From Candidatus Latescibacterota bacterium (lineage in GTDB: Bacteria > Latescibacterota > UBA2968 > UBA8231): a DNA stretch of 64,000 bases. The notes under the pieces were generated by a model. The model saw only the letters and a program-made list of their open reading frames with translations. It had not been told where the DNA came from and did not search any database. Positions 29,048 through 46,562 of the stretch are shown here, piece by piece. The position numbers were made by a program, and so were the translations under genes. The stretch lies in NCBI GenBank assembly GCA_007136405.1, contig SLHA01000087.1, positions 1 to 64,000 of the forward strand, read 5' to 3'. Every line of letters starts with the position of its first letter. Within the stretch, counting starts at the first letter, position 1.

Positions 29048-29092
29048 ACGTTATGAGTTTCACAATCTCGGAAATCATCTGCATCCCGGCAA
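29048..29092 (-). promoter_or_regulatory. Hox operon promoter with Rex-like operator
   Basis: On the minus strand a -35-like TTGCCG (29092-29087) is followed 17 bp later by GAGATT, and then by TTGTGA-AACTCA-TAACGT (29065-29048). The operator starts 27 bp from the -35 start, exactly as in the three rightward promoters of this window, and overlaps the presumed -10/start site. The second half of the double site seen elsewhere is degenerate here. Rex is expected to block this promoter when NADH is low. Confidence 0.6.
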
Positions 29093-29345
29093 GGGGCGCG
29101 TCGACTGACAGCAACCCGGAGACGCCGCTGGCGACAGCCGCGCGCCAGTTTCTGCCTGCGATAACCGCGGCCAGGGGCCACAGCCTGTGCTGCCGGGAAA
29201 TACCACCGCCGCTTTTCTCTCAGGAGCAGTCTGGCCTACGGCCGGGAGAGCTTCCTACAACCATCCTACTCCGAAGTGAACCCATCAACGGCGCACTTAA
29301 GCGACGTTTCTTCCAGGTGCGGGCCGGCCACAGGCCGGGGGTTGC

Positions 29346-29407
29346 TTGACAGGCGAACAGACGGTGCTTAGCTTGTTAATCCTGTAACGTTGTGATTTTT
29401 TTCACAG
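29346..29407 (+). promoter_or_regulatory. Rightward promoter with double Rex-like operator, no gene directly downstream
   Basis: TTGACA (29346-29351), 17 bp, then TAGCTT as a weak -10. Two overlapping 18-bp sites follow: TTGTTA-ATCCTG-TAACGT (29373-29390) and TTGTGA-TTTTTT-TCACAG (29390-29407). The next gene, rex, starts 440 bp away and has its own similar promoter. The transcript could be a long leader of rex or a separate RNA. Confidence 0.6.
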
Positions 29408-29764
29408 ATACATAATAATACCATATACAGGCACCAAATACAGACGCCAACCCGAAAAGCAGGTCACCGCCTGCCCTGGCCGGCAGGCCGCATACGCCCA
29501 AACACGCCGGCCGACACGCCAGACAAAGAACCGCCATAATCCGCCCATGCATGCCTTGACATCCCAGACCGGACGCAGCCGACAGCTCGGACGCAGTCGC
29601 ACGCAGGCTCGACACCGGCCCACCACCCGATACGACCCGCCCCAGGACCCGGGTCAAGCATGATACATCCAACAAGAAGACGGGCTACACAAGAAACTTC
29701 CCGAGCACCATAGCCAGGAAACCCTCTGAGCATCCCAGCCAGCAACTCCCTGACCGAAACCCCC

Positions 29765-29826
29765 TTGACTGATGCCGTCATCCCCCATAGTTTGTTATGC
29801 AATTCACAACGTTACTGCTTTCACAA
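29765..29826 (+). promoter_or_regulatory. rex-hyd promoter with double Rex-like operator
   Basis: TTGACT (29765-29770) and a weak -10 (TAGTTT, 29788) are followed by two overlapping 18-bp sites: TTGTTA-TGCAAT-TCACAA (29792-29809) and ACGTTA-CTGCTT-TCACAA (29809-29826). The centre reads the same as the 29373 element in reverse complement. It lies 23 bp before the rex GTG, so Rex probably represses itself and the hydCBA-nfn genes behind it. Confidence 0.7.
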
Positions 29827-29848
29827 ATCCCTCACGGGAGATTGTAGG

Positions 29849-30499
29849 GTGAGTCGCAGACAGGCGGTTTCTCCTAAATGCATCTCGCGCCTGAGTCTCT
29901 ATGGGCGGTTGCTGTCCACGGGCGTCGGCAGTACCAGCGGACGGGTCTATTCCCATGAACTCGCGCGCCTGGCCGGAGTTTCTGCCGCACAGGTCCGGCG
30001 GGATATCATGGGTCTGGGATGCTCCGGAACGCCCAATACGGGATACGATGTTCAGGCTCTGGGGTCGATCATCACGGAATACATCCATACACCGGAGGGC
30101 CAGCGGGTCGCCCTGGTCGGAGTCGGCAACCTCGGCAAGGCCATACTCACGTATTTCAGCCATGGCAGTAAGACCCGCCTGCGGCTGGTGGCCGCGTTCG
30201 ACACCGCCCGGGACAAAACCGGCCGCGTGCTGCACGGATGCCGATGTCACCCCATGGAGGAAATGAGCGACGTAATCCGCCGCGAAAACATCACGGTGGG
30301 CATCATCACCGTGCCGGCGGATGTCGCCCAACAGACCGCGGATGCGCTCATCAATGCCGGGGTAACCGGCATCCTGAACTGCGCGCCCGTGGCGCTCCAG
30401 GTTCCCGCCCGGGTATATGTGGAGAATCTGGACATCACCATCAAGCTGGAAACCGTCGCATTCTTTGCGCGTAGTGGCAGACCTCAGGCGGACGGTTGA
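29849..30499 (+). CDS. rex: Redox-sensing transcriptional repressor Rex
   Basis: Rex binds its operators when NADH is low and leaves DNA when NADH binds. The 216-aa protein has an N-terminal winged helix (LYGRLLSTG, SHELARLAGVSAAQVRRDI) and a Rossmann domain beginning VALVGVGNLGKAIL, followed by the family's PADVAQQTADALINAGVTGILN region. The track start at 29765 lies inside the promoter; I place the start at the GTG at 29849, preceded by GGGAG. It begins the rightward operon with hydC, hydB and hydA, and Rex-type palindromes sit before it and before three other promoters in the window. Confidence 0.95.
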   Translation: MSRRQAVSPKCISRLSLYGRLLSTGVGSTSGRVYSHELARLAGVSAAQVRRDIMGLGCSGTPNTGYDVQALGSIITEYIHTPEGQRVALVGVGNLGKAILTYFSHGSKTRLRLVAAFDTARDKTGRVLHGCRCHPMEEMSDVIRRENITVGIITVPADVAQQTADALINAGVTGILNCAPVALQVPARVYVENLDITIKLETVAFFARSGRPQADG

Positions 30500-44136: not shown

Positions 44137-44197
44137 TTGACCGTTTCTGCTCCAAATCTATATTGTTATATATGTAACATTGTTATTTTTTTCACAA
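44137..44197 (+). promoter_or_regulatory. TonB-receptor promoter with double Rex-like operator
   Basis: TTGACC (44137-44142), 16 bp, TATATT (44159-44164). Overlapping the -10 are two 18-bp sites: TTGTTA-TATATG-TAACAT (44163-44180) and TTGTTA-TTTTTT-TCACAA (44180-44197). Design and spacing match the elements at 29373 and 29792. The site ends 19 bp before the receptor ATG, so Rex repression is likely. Confidence 0.65.
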
Positions 44198-44216: not shown

Positions 44217-46562
44217 ATGAACCTGCGTCACTCGTTCCTCGTGCTGTACCTTGGCTTGTTGATTCCGGTCCAGGCGGCCGCGAACACGCTGCACGGCCTG
44301 GTAGTCGATGCCAGCGACAATCGCCCCCTGGCCGGAGCTCGCATCACCCTGGCGGGTACCAATCTCAGCACCACAGCCAACGCCGACGGCACGTTCTACT
44401 TCGCCTCAGTGCAACCCGACAGCCTCGTATTGACCATCACGCATGTAGGCTACGAAACACGCACTATCACCCTGTCGCTCTCCACCCTGGGAGACCGGGC
44501 CGTCCAGGTAGAGATGACCCCGGACCTCCGTCCGGTCGCCGGAGTCATCGTCACCGCGCGCAGTCGCCACGCCGCACCGGGCGATCTGGGCGGCTCTGCG
44601 GCTATACTATCCGGACCCGCGCTGATGGACGGGCAGCCCCTGTCCATTGCCCATTCAGCGAGCATCGTGCCAGGCGTCTCGCTGGGACAGGACATGCCGT
44701 GGAGTGCGCGGCCTCACGTGCGCGGTCTGAGCCGAGACCATGTGGCTTTCCTGGTGAACGGCAATCGTGTATCCACAACGACCGAACTCGCCGCCCAGTA
44801 CGGCACGGTACCACCCGCTGACGTCGAAAGGCTGGAGATCCTGAAAGGTCCCGTGTCGGTACTGTATGGCACCGGATCCACCGGCGGTGTGGTCAACGTT
44901 ATACCGCACAGCGGTAGATTCGCCCCCACCCCGCGCTGGTCCGGCGCCACGAACACCGGTTATGAATCCGGATCCGGCGGGCTCAGCGGCTACGCCCGGA
45001 TCGGCCTGGGGATGCCGAGGCTGTATCTCATGCTATCCCAGTCGTATCGCGACTATGGCCCGTATGTCGACGGCCGTGGAGACACCGTTCCCAACAGCCA
45101 ATTCCGGGACTATCAGACTCACCTCAACGCGGGGTACCAGGTGAGTGCGACACAGACGGTCGACGTGCGGTACCAGTGGTTCGAGGCACGGGATGTAGGC
45201 ATACCCGGTGCCGGCGGCATCTTCCCGGTCACCGCGAAGGTCTCCTATCCGCGCACACGGCGTCAATTGGCGGAAGCCACCTGGACATGGCGACCTGTCC
45301 ATCCGGTCTTGCAGCAGTCGGAGATTCGACTGTTCCGGCAGAGTGTCGACCGGCGCGTCGAAGTCGAACCCAACATCGTCAGCTATCTGCCGGCCACGGA
45401 TACGGCCCCGCTGCGGCGCGTTCGTCCTCAGCTGATCCAACCCGGCGCCGACCATGACACCCGCGGTTTCCGCTGGAACCACATGCTTGCCTTGGGAGAC
45501 CATGACCTGGTCGTGGGCCTGGAAGGCTGGGAGAAGGAACTGCAGTCTCTCCGGCGCCGCATCAACGATATCGACATCCTGGCGCCGGACAGCTCGCTGG
45601 TGACCACCAACCGGGTCATACTCGAAGATCGCAGTCTGCCCAACAGCACCTATCGTCCGCTAGGCGGCTACATCGAGCACGAGTTCACCCCCACGCCTCG
45701 ACTGACGCTCAACAGCGGTCTGCGACTGGACGTCATCCAGATCGACAGCGAGACCACGTACATCAGCTATACCCCCCCCAGTGATCGGGTTTTGTGGCAC
45801 GCAGAGACCGATCGGGACTACTCCTTCAGCGCCCAGTTCCGCGCCACCCATCGCCTCAGGTCGCACTGGAAAGCGCATCTCAACCTGGCACGCTCGTTCC
45901 GTTCGCCAGGCCTGGAAGAACGCTTTCTGTACGTTGATCTTGGGAGCCTGGTACGCATCGGTGATCCGGCGCTGGACAGCGAAAACGGGTATTTCGTGGA
46001 GGGTGGCCTGAGTGCGCGCACCAGCCACCTGGTGTGGAACGGCCAGGCCTATGTCAACCGCATCCGTAATATGGTGATCGAAACCCCGGCGGAATTCGAA
46101 GGACGCCCGGCTCGACGCAAGACCAATGCCGGCAACGCCCTGCTGCTGGGAGGCGAAACCGACCTTGCCGTAGTTCCGCACCGCGATGTGCTGCTGACCG
46201 CTACCGCCGCGTACGTGCGGGGCACGGACACCCTGGAAGACGATCCACTACCTGCTATTCCCCCCTTCAACGCACGGCTCGCCGTTCGTTACGGTCAGCG
46301 CGCATGGTACGAAGCCGCCTGGAACTGGAAAAGCGCCCAGAACCGGGTGGCTCCCGGAGAGCAGAAAACTCCTGGCTACAGGACGCTGTCCCTCACGGCC
46401 GGCCGCTCCGGTCTGCGGCTGGGTCCCGTTCAGCATCGGTTCACGTTGAGCGTGGAGAATCTTCTCGACCAAACGTATAGCGACCACCTCGCCACCTCCC
46501 GCGGATTCGAGCTCAATGCACCGGGCCGCTATTTTTCCATGTCATGGTCCACCGAGTTCTAG
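44217..46562 (+). CDS. TonB-dependent outer-membrane receptor with carboxypeptidase-regulatory-like N-domain
   Basis: 781 aa: signal peptide (MNLRHSFLVLYLGLLIPVQAAAN), a CarboxypepD_reg-like domain (about 27-105; GLVVDASDNRPLAGARITLAG), plug (about 125-235; SIVPGVSLGQD, RGLSRDHVAFLVNG, VERLEILKGPVSVLYGTGS) and a 22-strand-type barrel ending in Phe (FSMSWSTEF). It should import a siderophore, metal complex, vitamin or sugar polymer with TonB-ExbBD energy. The ligand is unknown. No TonB or periplasmic binding protein gene is adjacent. The Rex-like operator at its promoter ties uptake to NADH status, perhaps iron or nickel for hydrogenases. Confidence 0.93.
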   Translation: MNLRHSFLVLYLGLLIPVQAAANTLHGLVVDASDNRPLAGARITLAGTNLSTTANADGTFYFASVQPDSLVLTITHVGYETRTITLSLSTLGDRAVQVEMTPDLRPVAGVIVTARSRHAAPGDLGGSAAILSGPALMDGQPLSIAHSASIVPGVSLGQDMPWSARPHVRGLSRDHVAFLVNGNRVSTTTELAAQYGTVPPADVERLEILKGPVSVLYGTGSTGGVVNVIPHSGRFAPTPRWSGATNTGYESGSGGLSGYARIGLGMPRLYLMLSQSYRDYGPYVDGRGDTVPNSQFRDYQTHLNAGYQVSATQTVDVRYQWFEARDVGIPGAGGIFPVTAKVSYPRTRRQLAEATWTWRPVHPVLQQSEIRLFRQSVDRRVEVEPNIVSYLPATDTAPLRRVRPQLIQPGADHDTRGFRWNHMLALGDHDLVVGLEGWEKELQSLRRRINDIDILAPDSSLVTTNRVILEDRSLPNSTYRPLGGYIEHEFTPTPRLTLNSGLRLDVIQIDSETTYISYTPPSDRVLWHAETDRDYSFSAQFRATHRLRSHWKAHLNLARSFRSPGLEERFLYVDLGSLVRIGDPALDSENGYFVEGGLSARTSHLVWNGQAYVNRIRNMVIETPAEFEGRPARRKTNAGNALLLGGETDLAVVPHRDVLLTATAAYVRGTDTLEDDPLPAIPPFNARLAVRYGQRAWYEAAWNWKSAQNRVAPGEQKTPGYRTLSLTAGRSGLRLGPVQHRFTLSVENLLDQTYSDHLATSRGFELNAPGRYFSMSWSTEF

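Follow-up and report, generated by a model that had tools for sequence, protein, structure and literature searches.

The window analysed here, a stretch of 64,000 nucleotides from the 4.29-Mb, 87% complete assembly of an uncultured Latescibacterota bacterium, appears to carry two tandem Rex-repressed promoters, P1 and P2, ahead of rex and the [FeFe]-hydrogenase genes that follow it (rex-hyd), with the distal one, P1, producing an untranslated, Rho-sensitive leader of about 0.47 kb. We hold this reading tentatively, at a probability of about 0.42. According to the proposed mechanism, a high level of NADH would take Rex off the operators of both promoters; P2 would then yield an mRNA with a short leader, and P1, which takes its -35 box from the end of a dispersed repeat peculiar to this genome, an RNA with the long one. 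Rho could load on the P1 leader because it is C-rich, G-poor and weakly structured, and much of the transcription from P1 would stop before rex unless Rho were outrun or blocked. In that case P1 would serve as a second promoter, one of low output or conditional use. The operators, the promoter layout, the repeat-derived -35 box, the absence of a coding signal and the rut-like composition can be read directly from the DNA.

The gene rex opens a rex-[FeFe] hydrogenase cluster on the plus strand, and is followed rightward by genes for a HoxE/NuoE-like protein, a NuoF-type flavoprotein and a group A6 [FeFe] hydrogenase (NF040763, above cut-off). Leftward, on the minus strand and divergent from rex, lies a hoxEF-hoxU-hoxY-hoxH-like operon with HoxEF-, HoxU-, small- and large-subunit [NiFe] hydrogenase genes. 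The promoters and operators of the window, with rex itself, are as follows.

29346-29374, plus strand: promoter P1, TTGACA (29346-29351), 17-bp spacer, TAGCTT (29369-29374)
29373-29407, plus strand: double Rex operator of P1, two abutting palindrome-like sites, TTGTTAATCCTGTAACG (29373-29389) and TTGTGATTTTTTTCACAG (29390-29407)
29765-29826, plus strand: promoter P2 of rex, TTGACT (29765-29770), TAGTTT (29788-29793), double Rex operator (29792-29809 and 29810-29826)
29849-30499, plus strand: rex, GTG start, redox-sensing repressor (NCBIfam NF003995, 188 bits against a cut-off of 126)
29049-29065, minus strand: Rex-type operator CGTTATGAGTTTCACAA (letters of the plus strand), belonging to a candidate promoter that reads leftward into the divergent [NiFe] hydrogenase operon
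44137-44197, plus strand: third promoter of the P1/P2 type, TTGACC, 17 bp, TATATT, double operator (exact site at 44180)

The sequence gives good support for a Rex-type promoter in front of an untranslated stretch. The -35 box of P1 is perfect and stands at 17-bp spacing; its -10 box, TAGCTT, is weak (3/6 against TATAAT). Intact, near-palindromic operators lie over and just after the -10 box, including an 18-bp inverted repeat close to the published Rex consensus TTGTGAANNNNTTCACAA, and a gene for the Rex protein itself adjoins P1 and P2. This bears out the initial annotation, which had described a strong -35 box with a full double operator at 29346 and a next gene 440 bp away with a Rex promoter of its own; that gene, rex, starts about 440 bp beyond the P1 operator. 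From these features we infer that Rex binds at P1 and that transcription starts there, with NADH-sensitive repression as the prediction. The motif TTGTGAN6TCACA occurs once in the entire 4.29-Mb assembly, and TTGTKAN5TTCACA occurs three times without mismatch, at 29390 (P1), 29792 (P2) and 44180. Since such exact operators are few and all fall within the window, P1 is likely part of a Rex regulon that is small and very local.

Two further members of this regulon can be proposed. At the divergent hox operon, the operator at 29049 shares with P2 (29810) the only two exact occurrences of CGTTAN4TTTCACAA in the genome, its motif being expected 0.02 times in the window at one mismatch or fewer; the candidate leftward promoter consists of TTGCCG (29092-29087), 17 bp and GAGATT (29069-29064), hexamers that were picked by eye and then aligned. 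The promoter at 44137-44197 sits 20 bp before a gene for a TonB-dependent receptor (44217-46562), a candidate, and unusual, Rex target. The closest named relatives of the window's Rex are from Candidatus Latescibacterota, at 58% identity, and a second, more distant Rex-like match is present in the genome on contig C107.

Searching contigs with a Rex alignment returned 39 loci, and with the window's Rex sequence alone none. When P1, P2 and the promoter at 44137 were aligned with rex promoters from several phyla, a single common layout emerged, in which sigma-70 hexamers are combined with a pair of Rex operators, abutting or nearly so, located at the -10 box and beyond it; some relatives (L018, L019) have one operator at that place. 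P1 is thus no lone palindrome but one instance of a promoter type that recurs. Upstream of rex at eight loci (L133, L136, L139, L143, L145, L150, L152 and L161), several of which are titled Hydrogenedentota, a second palindrome, ATACTTACCGGTAAGTAT or ATACCTACCGGTAGGTAT, stands beside the Rex operators and is possibly the operator of another regulator. The initial annotation had named conservation of the interval in close relatives as a check, and at the level of the family the comparison gives it no support: G017, the sole same-family genome with this rex, has a single P2-type rex promoter and neither P1 nor the long A/C-rich leader, so that no conservation backs a function for either. This absence and the weak -10 box of P1 count against our preferred reading.

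The origin of the -35 box of P1 is a point that the initial annotation did not contain. A DNA search with the interval gave about 20 further sites in the genome that match 29301-29352, and these belong to a dispersed repeat of 75 bp with two hairpins, whose end, GGGGGGTTGCTTGACA / TTGCTTGACA, holds a consensus -35 box. The two units nearest P1 are listed below.

29283-29351, plus strand: repeat copy at P1 (nhmmer 54.6 bits), its last six bases, TTGACA, being the -35 box of P1
29189-29251, plus strand: older, degenerate upstream unit (nhmmer 30 bits, E 5e-7)

About 38 copies are present in this genome, mostly intergenic and some as tandem units (further examples are C26:32551-32615, C105:15028-15104 and C8:485-555, the last ahead of a tRNA-like sequence), and the other 24 genomes of the family contain none, save two short weak matches in unrelated sequence. 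The TTGACA end faces a co-directional gene in 19 of the 24 copies with a defined downstream neighbour, and a TA...T hexamer follows it at 16-18 bp in 5 of the 20 copies with an intact end, P1 included (mean of 0.8 in shuffles, with 0/500 reaching 5). The -35 box of P1 is the 3' end of this dispersed repeat. The genome also encodes three transposases of the Y1 type, a family that includes the REP-associated transposases (G000 C157:2067-2414, C100:12952-13299 and C44:30962-31291); it is possible that they could mobilise short repeats.

Between P1 and P2 lies the following stretch.

29407-29764, plus strand: untranslated stretch, rich in A+C and poor in T and G, for the most part rut-like, the predicted P1 leader

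The base skew noted initially proved exceptional on a genomic scale. The best 300-bp window of the stretch is 68% A+C and less than 9% T, which ranks first among 54,457 such windows on both strands of 1.38 Mb of the 4.29-Mb genome, a sample in which repeat-bearing contigs are over-represented, and first among 206 intergenic segments as delimited by a home-made codon-usage gene caller in place of a standard gene finder. The small repeats that had been reported come down to one 17-mer pair at 18-bp spacing (29565-29599) and little besides, so the skew does not stem from simple repeats. The stretch is gene-free, as had been claimed, with no codon periodicity and no hit to Pfam among the open frames that were searched, and coding was ruled out on either strand. 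A known RNA family was likewise ruled out, since a search of the interval against Rfam 15 returned nothing at the gathering cut-off and nothing at E<10, and so was a repeat, phage or plasmid origin, the A/C-rich interval having no similar DNA in its own genome, phages or plasmids. Among 39 other genomes a single 30-bp match was found, in G004 (90%, E 9e-4), which has dissimilar flanks and is taken as chance. The notion that leaders are A/C-rich throughout this genome was rejected because the sense 200 nt before 240 gene starts average only 0.505 A+C (sd 0.045). Elsewhere in the genome, other strongly strand-skewed noncoding stretches occur on contigs C36, C44 and C132 (L117:16749-17088, L125:13944-14743 and L073:6912-7421), and are partly made of short tandem repeats.

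The P1 leader has the composition of a Rho-utilisation (rut) site; published rules ask that such a site be unstructured, free of ribosomes and no shorter than 70-80 nt, that C outnumber G in it and that its C residues recur at regular intervals (PMC6407284). The rut rule of RhoTermPredict, which asks for 78 nt with a C/G ratio above a threshold and a C every 11-13 nt (PMC6407284), was run on 29381-29848 in 391 windows, and on 732 intergenic segments of equal length for comparison. With C/G>1 it held in 294 of the 391 windows; with C/G>1.5 it held in 286, a count that none of the 732 segments equals, and the antisense strand had no such window. The excess of C over G is continuous, with C/G at 1.84 over 358 nt, in the top 0.24% of intergenic windows. 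This match to the rut rule is a second new point, and suggests that Rho may act on the leader, which would form untranslated RNA ahead of the first gene if P1 is transcribed as predicted. The rule is a compositional one, and Rho leaves the depletion of T beside that of G unexplained. Rho itself is encoded in the genome (671 bits), and no match to Hfq was found in the 87%-complete assembly. Because the rut rule is satisfied, Rho is encoded and Hfq was not found, a tandem promoter with a long, Rho-prone leader is the best reading. The initial annotation had left the choice between a redox-controlled small RNA and a long leader of rex-hyd; the leader is favoured by its rut-like composition, by the failure to find Hfq, by a scan that found no intrinsic terminator between P1 and rex, and by sense-strand RNA that folds no better than shuffles (z -0.8), and only the promoter speaks for a discrete small RNA.

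The most serious rival, possible although we consider it rather unlikely, is that P1 is or was a real promoter and the stretch behind it a neutral or decaying spacer without function, left behind by the loss or displacement of a gene or of an earlier rex promoter region and drifting since, with an accidental skew. The absence of P1 from G017 fits such a history, as do the lack of any match to the interval in its own genome, phages and plasmids, the lone 30-bp match in the 39 other genomes, and the existence in this genome of a few other skewed noncoding stretches, some of them visibly repetitive. Against it, no other stretch in 1.38 Mb is as strongly skewed, the skew is not built of simple repeats, and the operators of P1 have stayed intact and near-palindromic.

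It seems improbable that P1 is the promoter of a separate small RNA under redox control whose end lies before P2. A promoter with operators, no open reading frame and more than 400 bp to the next gene would suit it; the terminator and the defined structure that such an RNA should have were, however, not found, and neither were an Rfam family, Hfq or a counterpart in relatives. Still less probable is a functional RNA on the minus strand, G/U-rich and structured, read leftward from the P2 region and possibly serving as the leader of the hox operon, of which the A/C-rich plus strand would be the mere complement. The minus strand of 29381-29764 does fold better than dinucleotide shuffles (z -3.97, and -2.1 to -3.9 with other cuts). 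However, z values of -2.7 to -2.9 also occur in 2 of 32 segments drawn at random from the genome, 150-nt minus-strand windows inside the interval give -1.7 at best, and a scan found no leftward promoter. Least credible is that P1 goes unused as a promoter and its operator is an accessory Rex site aiding repression of P2 or hox through looping: the weak -10 box and the clustering of three Rex sites (29049, 29373-29407 and 29792-29826) in 0.8 kb would allow it, but the perfect -35 box at 17-bp spacing and a layout equal to that of P2 and of the promoter at 44137 speak against it.

The tandem-promoter reading can be carried one step further, to two stacked gates on rex-hyd in which Rex acts at both promoters and a conditional Rho attenuator acts on P1 transcripts only. 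We regard this extension as a long shot. If it were true, hydrogenase output would be set by NADH and by whatever relieves Rho, and the Rho layer would date from the donation of an upstream -35 box by a dispersed repeat. Each of the elements is of a known kind; their combination is unusual and comes from one genome.

Three known systems bear comparison with this locus. First, Rex-autoregulated promoters of rex and hydrogenase genes are known, for instance in Caldicellulosiruptor bescii, where the operator consensus is TTGTGAANNNNTTCACAA (PMC6391272), and known targets of Rex include rex itself and [FeFe] and [NiFe] hydrogenase genes, with operators at the core promoter (PMC6391272). The window's operator fits this consensus; unlike these promoters, the window has a further Rex promoter some 0.42 kb upstream of the first, set off by an untranslated A/C-rich leader and with a -35 box derived from a dispersed repeat. 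The locus speaks for a small Rex regulon in an uncultured lineage of the FCB group, in which [NiFe] and [FeFe] hydrogenase operons and a TonB receptor would be linked. Second, the P1 leader resembles Rho-dependent leader attenuators in being long, untranslated and little structured, with C above G and regularly spaced (PMC6407284). It differs in being depleted of T as well, beyond what the rut rule covers, and the likeness is one of composition; a Rex promoter followed by a Rho-prone leader would make a concrete and testable example. Finally, the Correia repeat enclosed elements of Neisseria carry within them a 'Black promoter' made of a -35 and a partial -10 box (PMC2649163). The repeat at P1 is unrelated to them in sequence, being 75 bp long with two hairpins, contributing a -35 hexamer alone from one of its ends and confined to this genome; no inverted repeats were identified at its termini. 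Like them, it is a short, dispersed, intergenic repeat able to contribute some of the sigma-70 promoter of a gene next to it, and at P1 this genome-specific element furnishes a regulated promoter with its -35 half.
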